A stretch of 62,470 nt of DNA from Vulcanimicrobiota bacterium. Its GTDB lineage: Bacteria; Vulcanimicrobiota; Vulcanimicrobiia; Vulcanimicrobiales; Vulcanimicrobiaceae. Where the stretch lies: assembly GCA_003136355.1 (NCBI GenBank), contig PLED01000049.1, positions 276 through 62,745 on the forward strand, written 5' to 3'. The position numbers and the translations under genes were made by a program. Below, piece after piece: positions 14,298-62,470 of the stretch (positions within the stretch are counted from its first letter, which is position 1; the number at the start of each line of letters is the position of its first letter). The notes beneath the pieces are model-generated. The model was not told the origin of the DNA, made no database searches, and saw nothing but the letters and a program-made list of their open reading frames with translations.

Positions 14298-14778
14298 GTT
14301 TTATGCGATCTCGGCAGCCATCGTTTTCACGGCTGCGCTGATCATCGCCGGCTACGCCAATCGCGATCGCTTTCAGCTCAAGATCGCTTCGGTCAGCGTA
14401 TCGATTCCCCCCAAGGCCGCGCAAGCCGAGGCTGCCGCGCGCCGCCGCGAGCGCGCTTTCGGAATAGCGGCGCCGTGGGTGCTCTCCGCGCTGCCCGAGT
14501 GCCTGCGTCAGACGTTTGAGGCGGTCGGCAGCCGCGCATACGTGGCTTCGCGAATTCCGCCGGGCTACGTGGCGCAGCCCACGGGAACGCAACTGCAGTT
14601 TGCCGATTGCGGTCTCGCAGTCAGCGAAAACGAGGTGCTGATCCGCCGCGGGACCGACAAGTATTACGTTCCGCCGCCCGCGCAGCTCTTCAAGCGCGCG
14701 TCTTCGATCGCGCTGATGCACGAAGCCGGCGCGCGCGCGATCTTGCGCATTTACGAGCCGGCGCCGCCCGGTCTGTAG
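14248..14778 (+). CDS. Membrane-anchored protein of unknown function
   Basis: A frame of about 176 residues, starting at or near TTG 14248 (GGGGGAGGG follows; the exact start is uncertain), overlaps the end of the GH130 gene by about 50 bases. One hydrophobic helix lies near residues 17-37 (FYAISAAIVFTAALIIAGY), then an Ala/Arg-rich helix, then a small domain with two Cys (LPECLRQ and FADCGLAV). It ends in TAG overlapping the GTG of prfC. No family is recognised. Confidence 0.6.
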   Translation: MGEGPALSASPPKALLRFYAISAAIVFTAALIIAGYANRDRFQLKIASVSVSIPPKAAQAEAAARRRERAFGIAAPWVLSALPECLRQTFEAVGSRAYVASRIPPGYVAQPTGTQLQFADCGLAVSENEVLIRRGTDKYYVPPPAQLFKRASSIALMHEAGARAILRIYEPAPPGL

Positions 14779-16466
14779 TGTCTGACCTGGCAAGCGAAGT
14801 GCGCAAGCGGCGCACCTTCGCGATCATTTCCCATCCCGACGCCGGCAAAACGACGCTCACGGAAAAGCTGCTGCTCTACGGCGGCGCGATTCAGACCGCC
14901 GGTCAAGTTTCTGCGCGCCGCGCGCAGCGCGCGGCCACCAGCGATTGGATGGAACTCGAGAAGCAGCGTGGGATTTCCATAACGTCGACCGTGCTGCAGT
15001 TCGAGTACGGCGGCTGCACCGTGAATCTGCTCGACACGCCCGGACACCAAGACTTCGGCGAAGATACATACCGCACGCTGCTCGCGGCGGACAGCGCCGT
15101 TATGCTGATCGACGCGGCCAAAGGCGTCGAGCCGCAGACCAAAAAACTTTTCGCGATCTGCCGCGCGCGGCGCATTCCGCTCTTTACGTTCATCAATAAA
15201 ATGGATCGTCCGAGCCGCGATCCGCTCGAACTGCTCGACGAATTGGAAAGCGTTTTAGGCATCGGCGTCTTTCCGGTGAACTGGCCGCTGGGCAACGGGT
15301 CGTCGTTCAAAGGCGTCTTCGACCGCGCGACGCAGCGCGTGCATCTGTTCGAGCGCGTCGTGCATGGAGCAAAACGCGCCAACGTTGAAGTGACGGGTGT
15401 CGAGGATCCGCAGATTCGCGAACTGCTCGATGATCGTTCCTACGCGCAGTTCATCGACGAAATCGAGTTGCTGGAAGGCGCGGGTTCGCAGTTCGATCGC
15501 GATGCGATGCTGCGCGGCGACGTCTCGCCGGTGTTTTTCGGCAGCGCCGTCACCAATTTCGGCGTGCAACTATTTTTGGACGACTTCCTGAAGCTGGCGC
15601 CATCTCCCACGCCCCGCCGCATACTTAGCGGTGGTGACTTAGAGTGTCATCCTGAGCGGCCCGCGGAAGCGGGCCTGTCGAAGGACCCCGAGCAGCGAGC
15701 CGAAGGCGAGCCAGTCGAGGGGACGATCGATCCTACGAGCGACAGATTTACCGGCTTCGTTTTTAAGATTCAGGCGAATATGGACCCGCGTCACCGCGAC
15801 CGCGTTGCGTTCGTGCGGATCTGTTCAGGACGCTTCGAGCGCGACATGACCGTTCGCAACGCGCGCAGCGGAAAAGACGTGCGTCTCTCGCGCGCGATGA
15901 AGCTCTTCGCGAGCGAGCGCGAATCGGTCGAGGCGGCCTATGCCGGCGACGTGGTCGGCCTGGCCAATCCCGGCGTCTTCGCGATCGGCGATTCGCTGAG
16001 CGAAGGGGCGCCGGTGCAGTTCGAACGGTTTCCGGCGTTCGCGCCAGACCACTTCGCGCAAGTGCGAAGCGTGGACACGGCCGGCTACAAATCGTTTGGT
16101 AAGGGAATCGCTCAGCTCCGTGAAGAGGGCGCGATCCAAGTGATGTATCCGCTCGGGTCGATGCGTACGGAGCCCGTTCTTGCCGCCGTCGGACAGCTGC
16201 AGTTCGAAGTCGTGAAGCACCGTCTCGAATCGGAGTACAACGTGAAGACGATCTTCACGACGCTGCCGTTTTCGGTCGCGCGGCGCGTTCAAGGCTCAAG
16301 CGAAGCTCTTCAGGCTGCGCAGCTGCCGTCGAGCGCGAGGTTGCTGGAAGACTGGGACGGCGCGCCCGTCGCGCTTTTCGAATCGGATTGGAGTGTCCGG
16401 CTGGCCGAAGAGTGGAATCCGCAGCTGCGCTTTACGGAGTTTGCCGGTGCCGGCACCGTCGTTTAG
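14778..16466 (+). CDS. prfC: Peptide chain release factor 3, carrying an in-frame repeat insertion
   Basis: A GTPase that recycles release factors 1/2 from the ribosome after termination. GTG at 14778 overlaps the previous stop (TAGTG). The G-domain motifs are intact: HPDAGKTT (P-loop, ~20), RGISITST (switch I), DTPGHQDF (G3), NKMDRPS (G4). The C-terminal part has FTGFVFKIQANMDPRHRDR and later family blocks. The length is 562 residues against the usual ~525-535. The excess lies in the linker between the G domain and domain II, where a copy of the dispersed repeat (15644-15723) encodes about 27 foreign residues (including CHPERPAEAG) without breaking the frame. Confidence 0.93.
   Translation: MSDLASEVRKRRTFAIISHPDAGKTTLTEKLLLYGGAIQTAGQVSARRAQRAATSDWMELEKQRGISITSTVLQFEYGGCTVNLLDTPGHQDFGEDTYRTLLAADSAVMLIDAAKGVEPQTKKLFAICRARRIPLFTFINKMDRPSRDPLELLDELESVLGIGVFPVNWPLGNGSSFKGVFDRATQRVHLFERVVHGAKRANVEVTGVEDPQIRELLDDRSYAQFIDEIELLEGAGSQFDRDAMLRGDVSPVFFGSAVTNFGVQLFLDDFLKLAPSPTPRRILSGGDLECHPERPAEAGLSKDPEQRAEGEPVEGTIDPTSDRFTGFVFKIQANMDPRHRDRVAFVRICSGRFERDMTVRNARSGKDVRLSRAMKLFASERESVEAAYAGDVVGLANPGVFAIGDSLSEGAPVQFERFPAFAPDHFAQVRSVDTAGYKSFGKGIAQLREEGAIQVMYPLGSMRTEPVLAAVGQLQFEVVKHRLESEYNVKTIFTTLPFSVARRVQGSSEALQAAQLPSSARLLEDWDGAPVALFESDWSVRLAEEWNPQLRFTEFAGAGTVV
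15644..15723 (+). repeat. Dispersed palindromic repeat, copy 2 (in frame inside prfC)
   Basis: The copy begins TGTCATCCTGAG, has a perfect hairpin GGCCCGC-ggaa-GCGGGCC (15658-15675), then CTGTCGAAGGAC and a related tail ending AGTCGAGGGGAC. It is translated as part of release factor 3. The element is absent from the RF3 linker as known in other bacteria, so it is an insertion, not an ancestral part. Confidence 0.88.
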
Positions 16467-17403
16467 CTCGGTCCGCGCCGCCGCCGAACGGCTGCGCGGC
16501 ATCGCGCATCGCACGCCCGTGCTGACGTCGCGAACGCTCGACAGCATTGCGGGTGGCCCGGTTTTCTTGAAGTGCGAGAATATGCAGCGCATGGGCGCCT
16601 TCAAATTCCGCGGCGCGTACAACCGTATCGTGCAGTTAGACTCGGGTGCGCGCAAGCGCGGCGTCGTCGCCTTTTCGAGCGGCAATCACGCGCAGGGCGT
16701 CGCGCTTGCGAGCAAACTGCTCGGCGTTCCGGCCGTCATCGTCATGCCTTCCGATGCGCCCGCTTCAAAGATCGCAGCTACGCGGGAGTATGGCGCCGAG
16801 GTCATCTTTTACGATCGACACAAATCGCACCGCGCCGAAATCGCGCAAGAGCTCTGCGAAGAACGCAATGCGACGCTCATTCCGCCGTTCGACGATCCGG
16901 AGATTATAGCGGGCGCGGGAACCGCCGCGCTCGAGCTGCTCGAAGAGGTTCCAGACCTCGAGATTATTGCGACACCCGTCGGCGGCGGAGGCCTACTCTC
17001 CGGAACGGCGCTCGCGGCGCACGGGCTCAATAGCGAGATCGAATTGTACGGCGTCGAACCCGAAGCGGGAAACGATTTTCAGCAGTCGCTCGCGCGCGGG
17101 GAAATCGTGCAAGCGCCGGTGCCCGTAACGATCGCCGACGGTTTGCAAACTCAAGCGCCGGGCGATCTCACATTCGCCATCGTGCGCGAGCATGTGCGCG
17201 CGATCGTTACGGTAACCGACGACGAACTTCGCGACGCGATGCGGTTTGCGTTCGAACGCATGAAAATCGTGATCGAACCGAGCGGCGCCGCCGCGCTGGC
17301 GGCGGTCATGTTGGGCAAAGTTCCGGCCCGCGGCAAACGCACCGGCGTCATCATCAGCGGCGGCAACGTCGACGCCGCGAGATTTTCAGAACTTACTGCG
17401 TAA
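16447..17403 (+). CDS. Threonine/serine dehydratase (catabolic type, PLP-dependent)
   Basis: Deaminates threonine to 2-oxobutyrate, or serine to pyruvate, or racemises serine. The 318-residue fold-type II protein has the PLP lysine in GAFKFRGAYN near residue 53, SSGNHAQG near 77, the phosphate-binding Gly loop VGGGGLLSG near 177, and SGGN near the end. It lacks the C-terminal ACT-like regulatory domain of biosynthetic IlvA, fitting TdcB/serine racemase size. GTG at 16447 is chosen because RAAAERLRGIAHRTPVL is the typical N-terminus; it overlaps the prfC end by 20 bases. The 3' end overlaps convergent exbD by 11 bases. Confidence 0.88.
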   Translation: MPAPSFSSVRAAAERLRGIAHRTPVLTSRTLDSIAGGPVFLKCENMQRMGAFKFRGAYNRIVQLDSGARKRGVVAFSSGNHAQGVALASKLLGVPAVIVMPSDAPASKIAATREYGAEVIFYDRHKSHRAEIAQELCEERNATLIPPFDDPEIIAGAGTAALELLEEVPDLEIIATPVGGGGLLSGTALAAHGLNSEIELYGVEPEAGNDFQQSLARGEIVQAPVPVTIADGLQTQAPGDLTFAIVREHVRAIVTVTDDELRDAMRFAFERMKIVIEPSGAAALAAVMLGKVPARGKRTGVIISGGNVDAARFSELTA

Positions 17404-17791
17404 CGAACTCGACGTCGTTTATGCCTGCGAGTTTCGCGGCATCCAATACGCGCAAGGCCAAACCGTAGGGCGCGTGCGTGTCGGCGACGAGCGATACGCG
17501 GGCTTTCGAGCCTGCGCGAGACATTGCCGCATAGAGCCCGGCAACGCTGATCGTCTTGCCGCCCACGGCGATGCCGCCGTGTCGATCGATCGTGACGATG
17601 ACGCGCTGAAAGGCCGCCGCGGCCGTCGGTCTTCCGGGATTTGCAAAGCTTCGTTCGAAGCCCGGCGGCACCATCAGTGCTGCCAACAGCATGAACACGA
17701 TCAATAAGACGAGCAGCACGTCCGTGAACGGCGTGATGTTGATCTCAGCCAGGAGCGAGGAGTCTTGCGCGGAGGCCAGCGACTTGTTCAT
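17393..17791 (-). CDS. exbD: ExbD/TolR family biopolymer transport protein
   Basis: Part of a proton-driven motor that energises TonB or Tol across the periplasm. The 132-residue protein has a short cytoplasmic N-terminus, one transmembrane helix with the essential Asp (INITPFTDVLLVLLIVFM, Asp near residue 25), and a periplasmic domain. No exbB/tolQ or tonB gene is adjacent, so partners must be elsewhere. It could energise the large TonB receptor at 36719, which is inference. The start is ATG 17791; the longer frame upstream runs into the repeat at 17840-17937 and was not used. Confidence 0.85.
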   Translation of the reverse strand: MNKSLASAQDSSLLAEINITPFTDVLLVLLIVFMLLAALMVPPGFERSFANPGRPTAAAAFQRVIVTIDRHGGIAVGGKTISVAGLYAAMSRAGSKARVSLVADTHAPYGLALRVLDAAKLAGINDVEFVTQ

Positions 17792-17839
17792 ACCCCAAGA
17801 GCGCTTTCCGCGCTGCACTCGTGACGCGCGGGCCTCGTC

Positions 17840-17937
17840 ATGCGCGCCTAAAGGGCGCGCTGCTCGGCAGTCCTTCGACCCTTCGACTCGCGTTTCTGAC
17901 GAAACGCTGCTCAGGACAGGCTTGCTCAGGATGACAG
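17840..17937. repeat. Dispersed palindromic repeat, copy 3 (compound, intergenic)
   Basis: Fills most of the 151-base gap between exbD and the peroxidase gene. It contains an inverted repeat GCGCGCC-taaa-GGGCGCGC (17842-17860 region), then CCTTCGACCCTTCGACTC, a second hairpin GCGTTTC-tgac-GAAACGC, and the CTCAGGATGACA end at about 17925-17936. It may be two nested copies. Confidence 0.75.
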
Positions 17938-17942
17938 CGTGC

Positions 17943-18509
17943 TTAGCGGCCCATCGAGTAAAACTCGTCGTTCGGGCGCATATCCATGAGGCCGGCCATG
18001 CGGTTGGAGAAACCGAAGAATGCGGCGATGGCGGCGACGTCCCAAATGTCATTGTCGCTGAAGCCGGCCAAATGCATCTCGTCGATCTCGTGCTCGGTCG
18101 CCGCGAATCCCGGTTCGTTTACGCGCGACGCGAATTCGAGCATAGCGCGCATCCTCGGCGGAAGATTCGCGGTGCGCCAGTTGTTGGCAATCTGCTCGGC
18201 TAAAATCGGATCTTTGCTCAGGACGCGCAGCGCCGCGCCGTGCGCGACCATGCAGTACTGGCAGCGGTTTTCCGACGAGACGGCCACGACGATCGCTTCG
18301 CGTTCGATGCGGCTGAGATTCCCGGGCGCCTTCATCAGCACGTCATGATAGTTCATGAACGCGCGGAAGTGCTCGGGACGCCGAGCGTACGCGCGAAAGA
18401 CGTTCGGGACGAAGCCCAGCTTCTCGCGGTTCTTCGCGTAGACTTCGGCTATGTCGGCCGGCAGATCGCTTTCGGACGGTTCGCCGAAGCGCGAAACCGC
18501 GTTAGCCAC
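17943..18509 (-). CDS. AhpD-like peroxidase-related protein (carboxymuconolactone decarboxylase family)
   Basis: Members reduce peroxides or act as thiol-disulfide enzymes in the cytoplasm. The 188-residue all-helical protein has the redox motif CQYCMVAHG near residue 83 (Cys-x2-Cys-x3-His) and the family-specific opening FVPNVFRAYARRPEHF and closing GFSNRMAGLMDMRPNDEF. The start is GTG at 18509, overlapping the end of the propeller-protein gene by 8 bases. The gene ends at a copy of the dispersed repeat. Confidence 0.88.
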   Translation of the reverse strand: MANAVSRFGEPSESDLPADIAEVYAKNREKLGFVPNVFRAYARRPEHFRAFMNYHDVLMKAPGNLSRIEREAIVVAVSSENRCQYCMVAHGAALRVLSKDPILAEQIANNWRTANLPPRMRAMLEFASRVNEPGFAATEHEIDEMHLAGFSDNDIWDVAAIAAFFGFSNRMAGLMDMRPNDEFYSMGR

Positions 18510-60500: not shown

Positions 60501-61154
60501 CTAGCGGCTCTCTTGCGCCTTGCCTGCGGCGATCATCGCGCTGCGGATCCGGCTCAATTCTGCGGGCGGAATCGAGTACCCCAGTACGGTAACGCGTTCT
60601 ACGCCGGCGTTCCATTGCGCATAATGAGTTTGTCCCTTCGGCGCAAATTTGATCGAGTACCCCGGCGGCAGAGTGCTCTGCGCGCTCGGGGCCGACGACA
60701 AAGGCGTGATGAGGAACGAAATGAAGCAGCACTGTCCGTGCCCCGGAACGCTGTAGGAAACGACAAACGATTCCGTTCCCGCGGCCATGAGAAAGCCTCG
60801 CAGCTTCGATCCGGCCGGAAGCCCAGCCGGCGGCACGACGCGGTAATGCGCTCCTTGCACGATCTTTGCAAGCTCGCCCGGAGTTGCGGTGCGATAGACG
60901 TGCGCGTTCTTACTGCTGACAAATACCCCGCCGCGCGGCAGCCAGATAATGCGCGCCGGAATGATCTGCGAGGCCGCCAACGCCAGCGAGGGGATGCCGA
61001 TGACCAAAGCGGCCAGCAGCCACGAACGGCTTCGGCGCGGTCGCGCAATATTCGAACTCGATGCGGCCCGAGCGCGAACGGCCGCAAGATCGAAGGCGGG
61101 CAAAGCGCTTGCGGTGACATCGGCCGTAACCGCGTATTTCAAAGACTCGTTCAT
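60501..61154 (-). CDS. Probable anti-sigma factor (transmembrane)
   Basis: ATG 61154 overlaps the ECF sigma stop (ATGA), the classic sigma/anti-sigma arrangement. The 217-residue protein has a short cytoplasmic N-part (~1-42, ends RPRRSR), one helix near residues 44-62 (SWLLAALVIGIPSLALAA), and an outer domain with VPPAGLPAGSKLRGF and a Cys pair in HGQCCFISF. No zinc-binding HxxxCxxC anti-sigma domain is seen, so the assignment rests mainly on position and topology. Confidence 0.72.
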   Translation of the reverse strand: MNESLKYAVTADVTASALPAFDLAAVRARAASSSNIARPRRSRSWLLAALVIGIPSLALAASQIIPARIIWLPRGGVFVSSKNAHVYRTATPGELAKIVQGAHYRVVPPAGLPAGSKLRGFLMAAGTESFVVSYSVPGHGQCCFISFLITPLSSAPSAQSTLPPGYSIKFAPKGQTHYAQWNAGVERVTVLGYSIPPAELSRIRSAMIAAGKAQESR

Positions 61155-61693
61155 AACGACTCCTTTGCGCATTGGGGCGGATGAACGGGGAAGCATTCGA
61201 ACAAGAGTGGTTTCAGCTTGCGACGGGCGAGCATCAGGCGAAACCTTACCGTGGGAGCGGCAACGCCCAAAACTTCGGAAATTTCTCTGCTCGTCAGATC
61301 CGCGTAGTAATGAAGAACGACGGCCGCGCGCAGTTCGGGCGAGAGCGTATCTAAGGCCCGGCTGATATCGAGGCGGCTCTCGCGGTCCGGCGGGACTTGC
61401 TCGGCGGCTTGCGCGGTTTGTGACGCCGACGACCGTGCTTGGCGCAGCGCCTCGCGTGCCACAATGCGGTAGAACCAGACGCGAAATGCACCGGCGGTGC
61501 GGAGCGTCGAGATGCTTCCGTACACGGTCGCGCACGACTCCTGAGCGGCATCCTCGGCGGCTGCGCGATCGCGCACGATCGAATAGGCGATGCGATAGGC
61601 GTCCGGCCACACCGATTCGAGTAACCGCTCCAGAGCCTCGACGGAACCGGCTCTAGCGTCGTCAACCAGTTTTTCGTCCACAGGTACGGTCAT
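61151..61693 (-). CDS. ECF-family RNA polymerase sigma factor
   Basis: A 180-residue sigma-70 family factor that directs transcription of a stress regulon. Region 2 is visible near residues 13-75 (AGSVEALERLLESVWPDAYRIAYSIVRDRAAAEDAAQESCATVY, then FRVWFYRIVAREAL), and region 4 near 110-160 (LDTLSPELRAAVVLHYYADLTSREISEVLGVAAPTVRFRL), with the helix-turn-helix. ATG 61693; no anti-sigma-like motif inside. It is translated with the membrane protein at 60501. Confidence 0.92.
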   Translation of the reverse strand: MTVPVDEKLVDDARAGSVEALERLLESVWPDAYRIAYSIVRDRAAAEDAAQESCATVYGSISTLRTAGAFRVWFYRIVAREALRQARSSASQTAQAAEQVPPDRESRLDISRALDTLSPELRAAVVLHYYADLTSREISEVLGVAAPTVRFRLMLARRKLKPLLFECFPVHPPQCAKESL

Positions 61694-61788
61694 TACGAGC
61701 GTGTCTTCGGCATATCATAGCAATAGAGGAGCCAGAGGCGCCAAGTGTTGGCGGGATTCCCGCGATGCATCGGGTAGACGATAGATTA

Positions 61789-61897
61789 CGCGGGAGCTTC
61801 TGAGCTTGTCCTGAGCGAGCAGGGCGAGTCGAAGGGCTGAGAGGGCGTTTTGCCGACCGCCGTGACCTGACGCGGGTAATGCCGCCGTAGGGAGGAG
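61789..61897 (+). promoter_or_regulatory. TPP riboswitch controlling thiC, carrying a repeat in its variable arm
   Basis: The THI-box core is visible: GGGAGC (61792-61797), CTGAGA (61837-61842), ACCTGA (61865-61870), GGGTAATGCC (61874-61883), GTAGGGA (61887-61893). The thiC ribosome-binding site GGAGGAG begins inside the last element, so ligand binding should hide it and stop translation. The arm between GGGAGC and CTGAGA (normally a short stem) is filled by a copy of the dispersed repeat, CTTC...GAAG closing the stem. Confidence 0.88.
61797..61836. repeat. Dispersed palindromic repeat, copy 8 (inside the TPP riboswitch)
   Basis: Reads CTTCTGAGCTTGTCCTGAGC followed by GAGCAGGGCGAGTCGAAG; on the other strand it has the family TTCGACTCGCCCTGCTCG and CTCAGGACAAGCTCAG parts. 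Its ends pair, extending a riboswitch stem. Confidence 0.82.
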
Positions 61898-61901
61898 ACT
61901 C

Positions 61902-62470
61902 ATGAAAGTTTACACCGCCGGATCCGATCCGTCGATTCGCGTACCGATGCGCGAAGTCGCGCTCACCAATGGTGAATCGCACGTCGTCTACGACACGAGC
62001 GGACCATACACCGACGCGAACGCCGCGATCGACATCCGGCGTGGATTGGCAGCGCTGCGATCGAAGTGGATCGAAGAGCGCGGCGACACCGAAGAACTCG
62101 ATAAGCCAAGCTCGCTCTACCGCCGCGGCCGCGAAGCGATGCCGGAACTCGAAAGCATCCGGTTCGAGGGCGTGCGCAAACCGCGCCGCGCAAAACCGGG
62201 CGCAAACGTTTCACAGATGCATTACGCGCGCCAAGGCATCGTGACACCGGAGATGGAGTTCATCGCGATTCGCGAGAATCTCGGCCGCGAAAAGGCCTAC
62301 GGTGTTTCTAACAAGCGCTCCAACCTCCACTTCCAGCATCCCGGCGAGTCGTTCGGCGCCAAGATCCCCGACTTCATCACGCCCGAATTCGTTCGCGACG
62401 AGATCGCATGCGGACGAGCGATCATTCCGGCGAATATCAATCATCCGGAACTGGAGCCGATGATCATCGG
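61902..62470 (+). CDS. thiC: Phosphomethylpyrimidine synthase, 3' end outside the window
   Basis: A radical-SAM enzyme that converts aminoimidazole ribotide to hydroxymethylpyrimidine phosphate for thiamine. Translating from ATG 61902 (GGAGGAG just upstream) gives 189 residues to the window edge with no stop. The ThiC N-terminal domain is evident: [10 protein letters not shown] near residue 29, [21 protein letters not shown] near 106, then [42 protein letters not shown]. Thiamine diphosphate is the cofactor of the nearby aceE. The cluster Cys near the C-terminus are outside the window. Confidence 0.95.

Follow-up and report, generated by a model that had tools for sequence, protein, structure and literature searches.

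Small palindromic repeats in structured RNAs, and riboswitches with repeats in their leaders, were described previously. Rickettsia palindromic elements (RPE) were found to lie within two rickettsial RNAs, the tmRNA and the RNase P RNA (Ogata et al. 2002, as cited in PMC2229807), and upstream of trp in the pneumococcus a BOX element separates two T-box riboswitches (PMC3049150). As to TPP riboswitches, PMC6414600 describes the distal part of P3 as variable in plants and dispensable for binding of the ligand, and the contact between P3 and L5 as essential for metabolite binding. In Klebsiella pneumoniae, P3 of the thiC riboswitch is extended, and E. coli thiC given this P3 stem retained its response to pyrithiamine (PMC12632268); the relevant passages of the two papers mention no repeat origin of the Klebsiella or plant P3. 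A search of open-licence papers revealed no report of a dispersed repeat that serves as an arm of a riboswitch aptamer. The initial annotation of the DNA studied here proposed that a mobile palindrome occupies the variable arm of a TPP riboswitch and acknowledged no well-described parallel; given the RPE and BOX cases and the extended P3 stems of Klebsiella and plants, the latter remark has to be withdrawn.

The window, i.e. the whole stretch of 62,470 nucleotides from a Vulcanimicrobiota bacterium that was analysed, bears a TPP riboswitch aptamer (THI box, RF00059) at 61780-61910 (+), which reaches the start of thiC. It was aligned by cmscan over all 105 model positions (1-105) with 54.1 bits (E 1e-9). 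The gathering score of RF00059 is 54.3, and it is because of these missing 0.2 bits that a default Rfam scan of the window is silent on the riboswitch. GGGAGC, CUGAGA, ACCUGA, UAAUGCC and GUAGGGA were all found in it, and the conserved letters of CUGAGA (J3/2) and of P4/P5 align without loss. On the forward strand, GCGGGAGC (61790-61797) provides the 5' strand of P2 and the first bases of P3, CTGAGA (61837-61842) is the J3/2 pyrimidine-sensing motif, the facultative stem P3a (61844-61854) is short and native, and GACCTGA...GTAATGCCGCCGTAGGGA (61864-61893) forms the pyrophosphate-sensing arm P4/P5. The open reading frame that begins at 61902 and continues beyond the window end (61902-62470, +) is the 5' part of thiC, as judged from its translation and a match to the ThiC model NF006763 (E 2e-57). 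Thus, completeness of the THI-box elements upstream of thiC, as claimed initially, was confirmed. No other TPP element was found in this 2.5 Mb genome.

A probable Shine-Dalgarno sequence, AGGGAGGAG (61889-61897, +), sits 4 nt upstream of the thiC ATG and overlaps the 3' end of the aptamer, which suggests that the output of this riboswitch is likely translational, through hiding of that sequence. P1 has standard pairs at 2 of the 5 model positions, and inspection of aligned thiC leaders suggested that this stem may be little developed across the genus. Directly upstream of the aptamer (61753-61780), GGRATYC occurs about 12 nt before GGGTAGWCG, and both are conserved in the genus. This element looks promoter-like, and transcription may start just before P2; if so, the weakness of P1 would be explained. 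An ECF sigma factor gene (61151-61693, -) adjoins the element.

The riboswitch of the window differs from the typical RF00059 member, which it resembles in its sensing motifs, the P2-P5 layout and the place upstream of thiC, by a P1 that seems to pair little and by a repeat copy in the apical part of P3. The latter region (61798-61835, +) takes 38 nt between GGGAGC and GCTGAGA, whereas the corresponding loops of six congeners (G001-G006) are 6 nt long (TTGAGT, CTTTGA, TTTCGG, TCTAGG, TTGAGA and TTTATT). Since the sites align on both flanks and all six congeners have short loops, the simplest history is that P3 gained about 32 nt in the lineage of this species. Where exactly the insert begins and ends is ambiguous: CTT at the 5' side is shared with most congeners and so was probably present before the insertion. 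Two of the checks suggested by the initial annotation, the RF00059 covariance search and the comparison of thiC leaders from sister genomes, came out in its favour: the model matched, and the congeners have short loops in place of any unrelated, equally long arm. The insert is known from one draft genome of the species (111 contigs), and a repeat in P3 was absent from all other riboswitches inspected in the phylum.

The claim that the P3 arm is occupied by a repeat copy also held. The unit CCTGAGCGAGCAGGGCGAGTCGAAGG (61810-61835, +) can be written as CCTGAGCGAGC-AGG-GCGAGTCGAAGG and fits the genome-wide family at every position but the central triplet; the 26-nt form found elsewhere in the genome is CCTGAGCGAGC-GAA/GTA-GCGAGTCGAAGG, and an AGG centre was seen in no other copy among the matches listed for this genome. 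An upstream half-unit, CTGAGCTTGT (61800-61809, +), is fused to the repeat unit, and composites of a like kind, GAGCCTGT-CCTGAGC, are present at other sites of the genome. The units of the family are about 17-45 bp long, with constant ends CCTGAGC...GTCGAAGG and, between them, a core of a few bases or, in other copies, a hairpin with arms that vary from one copy to the next. In matches from the whole genome, the two arms of this hairpin core covary from copy to copy while the ends stay constant, as though nothing but self-complementarity and the ends had been maintained. The pattern CCTGAGCN{0,30}TCGAAGG has at least 102 exact matches in this genome, 48 on one strand and 54 on the other, and the reversed control pattern has none on either strand (0+0). 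Each of the six congeners has 36 to 91 matches, and genomes from the family's other genera have up to 99.

With its short, dispersed, palindromic units in high copy number (48+54 matches against 0+0 for the control), the repeat resembles REP/REPIN sequences mobilised by RAYT (PMC3116915, PMC2817692, PMC3733652). It differs from them in its highly variable hairpin core, in its constant ends CCTGAGC and GTCGAAGG, which may depart from the GTAG or CGTC tag found at one end of REP, and also in that no RAYT gene (Y1_Tnp, PF01797) was found in the seven genomes of the genus by a search that was positive in 5 of 14 control genomes. RAYT as the mover of the repeat was thus rejected, and we infer mobility from the dispersal of the copies and their presence or absence at particular sites. 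One such site is prfC (ORF 14607-16466, +), where an in-frame copy (15640-15715) lies in the RF3 linker, between PSPTPRRI and DPTSD; the congener linkers at this site have 19 to 49 residues and contain different copies, with G006 being the shortest, which supports activity of the repeat within the genus. A further copy (17873-17935, -) was noticed in a TolR/ExbD-like ORF (17393-18052, -), within its N-terminal extension; the actual start codon of this ORF may be located downstream of the copy.

RNA folding predicts that the repeat-derived arm contains a 10-bp hairpin, GCUUGUCCUG/CAGGGCGAGU with the loop AGCGAG (61804-61829, +; strands 61804-61813 and 61820-61829). The P3 hairpin alone was calculated at -18.5 kcal/mol, as compared to 0 to -0.1 kcal/mol in the congeners, and the main share of this stability comes from the internal hairpin. 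If P3 was made to keep its bottom G-C pair, the native register GCUU/GGGC gave -17.0 kcal/mol, and the CTTC/GAAG register, in which a GG bulge is needed, gave -14.3 kcal/mol; the same internal 10-bp hairpin is common to both. According to the initial annotation, the palindrome was accepted because its CTTC/GAAG ends pair and extend the arm instead of breaking the fold. These ends can indeed pair, but they do not close the arm in the preferred register, and end pairing was rejected as the reason for acceptance, since the native register is better and the inner hairpin contributes more. What stands of this proposal is the extension of the arm with an intact core, by a palindrome whose mobility is itself deduced. 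Among all 64 possible central triplets, AGG gives the most stable arm (a post hoc comparison), and the triplets of the other listed copies yield -10.9 to -13.5 kcal/mol. The AGG centre could reflect either selection at the RNA level or a DNA-level process in which an imperfect palindrome was corrected by templating. In the unconstrained fold of the 131-nt element the minimum is not the aptamer, and its stability is no better than that of shuffled sequences (z -0.56); thus, the aptamer structure rests on the family model rather than on energy.

A second case was found in G077, a genome of the same family but another genus. Its thiC riboswitch matches the TPP model with 42.6 bits (E 6e-7) and is followed by thiC; P3a is formed by a repeat-family copy, GCCCTTCGGCGATGTCATCCTGAGTCCGTCGAAGGAC, the arm between CTGAGAGG and CGACCG being CCCTTCGGCGATGTCATCCTGAGTCCGTCGAAGGA. 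Its ends CCTTCG/CGAAGG pair, and the predicted energy is -15.9 kcal/mol, compared with -10 to -13 kcal/mol for native P3a stems of its genus. The exact string TCATCCTGAGTCCGTCGAAGG recurs elsewhere in the congener G075, the G077 genome has 16 matches to the repeat pattern, and a further copy, GTCATCCTCAGCTTGTCGAAGGG, abuts the G077 aptamer on its 5' side. As the arm, the genus and the form of the sequence all differ from those in the window, the landings in P3 and P3a are, judging from the sequences, independent events.

A separate problem is how often such landings occur. A TPP match was obtained in 109 of the 149 genomes of the phylum, and the unusually long elements were inspected for the repeat; no third repeat-bearing riboswitch arm was seen among the 149 genomes. 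A repeat origin was considered and rejected for the long elements of G012, G025, G034, G041, G051, G104, G107 (twice), G113, G123 and G026/G102/G103, in which the extra length is non-repeat and sits in J2/4, P3 or P3a. In five genera of the family, J2/4 contains an additional hairpin, about 20-25 nt long, just before ACCTGA (loci L049, L047, L048, L156, L157, L158, L154 and L194, from G012, G025, G034, G104, G107 twice, G113 and G088), and these hairpins show no likeness to the repeat. Scanning of about 85,000 species with the exact pattern GTCGAAGGN{0,2}CTGAGAN{6,36}ACCTGA, which covers one P3-side junction in one orientation, gave no repeat-bearing riboswitch: 33 stretches were found, of which 8 were TPP-like by inspection, and none of these 8 had the repeat upstream. 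As a check for broken riboswitches, ThiC was searched in the 16 family genomes without a TPP match, and only two had it; G088 has a TPP element with the J2/4 hairpin, and in G028 no TPP element is visible.

As to other structured RNAs, Rfam analysis of 20 repeat-bearing loci yielded a single tRNA, located about 600 nt away from the repeat, and tmRNA lengths are even across the genus. RNase P RNA of the window genome (G000) and of G005 is 439 nt long, with about 127 nt taken up by a P12 arm (L201 1699-1825 and L200 1615-1741; predicted at -62 kcal/mol in G000), which is absent from the other five congeners (328-344 nt); this arm is not the repeat, and no other copy of it occurs in the sequence examined. 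By a rough estimate based on assumed intergenic fractions, 0.1-0.5 repeat copies would be expected within a variable arm of about 30 nt over 44 genomes, and two were observed. Two cases are thus no strong excess and no proof of a preference for arms; they would agree with ordinary landings in leaders on which function then acted as a filter. Since the model detects only elements with an intact core, absence of insertions in the core is uninformative.

We consider it probable that this is an ordinary thiC TPP riboswitch whose P3 loop received a repeat copy after the split of the species from its congeners, and that it represents a tolerated landing. The identity of the repeat, the net gain of about 32 nt, the short loops of the congeners and the intact core allow the insertion step to be taken as established. 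Having entered the P3 loop, the copy of the abundant small palindromic repeat would, as modelled, fold on itself into the 10-bp hairpin, which prolongs the short native P3. The hairpin continuing this stem, the arm would be lengthened with ligand contacts spared; its distal part would make no contact with the ligand, and published work shows that changes in distal P3 are tolerated. J3/2 and P4/P5 would continue to sense the ligand, and thiC translation would still be controlled through the Shine-Dalgarno sequence. The same family entered P3a of the riboswitch in the related genome G077, and the two arms together point to tolerated landings filtered by RNA function, with no special device required. 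Against this reading count the score just short of the gathering cut-off, the free fold that differs from the aptamer, the P1 with 2 of 5 model pairs, although the genus in general seems to have little of this stem, and the reliance on one draft genome of the species.

It could be argued, instead, that the insertion damaged or detuned the riboswitch, so that thiC is constitutive or poorly expressed and the element is decaying. The score of 54.1 bits is below those of all six congeners (56.0-62.8 bits), and the free-folding minimum differs from the aptamer; however, all conserved sensing segments are intact, the lower score may largely be the cost of the long insert together with a shorter P3a, and the region of P3 that took up the insert is one that varies among working riboswitches (PMC6414600, PMC12632268). 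We therefore find damage unlikely. An opposite possibility is that the arm was positively selected: P3 had shrunk to 2-3 bp in the genus, and the repeat restored a stable stem that aids docking of L5 or tunes the response to ligand. The change of P3 from nearly no predicted stability in the congeners to -18.5 kcal/mol, the best fold among 64 triplets being that of AGG, a centre unlike that of any listed copy, and the essential role ascribed to the P3-L5 contact in PMC6414600 would all fit. Nevertheless, the congeners retain thiC and a riboswitch with short P3, so the need for such a stem is not evident, and the triplet result is post hoc and would look the same after correction of the palindrome in DNA; this scenario also seems improbable to us. 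Even in its broad form, in which repeat copies landing in riboswitch stems of this family are kept, refined towards perfect pairing (AGG) and act on a shrunken P3 by restoring or tuning it, mobile DNA recurrently supplying parts of sensors, it is rather doubtful.

Two further explanations concern the origin of the arm itself. An assembly error might have joined the repeat to the leader, as could be suspected in a genome of 111 contigs with more than 100 repeat copies, the only one of its species in the analysis; but both flanks continue one intact aptamer, which without the insert has the plan of the congeners, and the insert, at under 60 nt, is below typical read length, making this very improbable. 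Growth of the long arm in situ, with a chance resemblance to the repeat, is hardly credible: varied non-repeat hairpins do exist in P3, P3a and J2/4 of relatives, but here other copies in this genome share 23 of the 26 bases, which are all the constant ones of the repeat, and a second riboswitch, that of G077, carries the same family.

The proposed tolerated landing of a repeat has its closest relatives in the systems mentioned at the outset. Like RPE (PMC2229807), the repeat is small and palindromic, lies within conserved structured RNAs (P3 in the window and P3a in G077), where it is apparently tolerated, and has entered a conserved protein gene in frame (prfC here). The likeness is one of description, RPE being 105-146 bp long and the present repeat about 17-45 bp, and the host here is a metabolite-sensing riboswitch. 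With the pneumococcal BOX element (PMC3049150) it shares transcription within a riboswitch leader that apparently still works, although BOX stands between two complete riboswitches and the present repeat within an aptamer arm. The P3 stems of K. pneumoniae (PMC12632268) and plants (PMC6414600) are alike in that a long P3 is compatible with response to the ligand. While small repeats in structured RNAs were already known, the new element is a dispersed repeat that forms arms of riboswitch aptamers, in two instances.

Riboswitches are diverse in the length and sequence of their peripheral arms, the source of which is usually not known; here the source is a dispersed repeat. The short-armed sister species represent the state before the insertion, and the second arm, in G077, provides an independent replicate. 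Growth of riboswitch arms by capture of mobile palindromes, and its effect on affinity or switching, thereby becomes testable.
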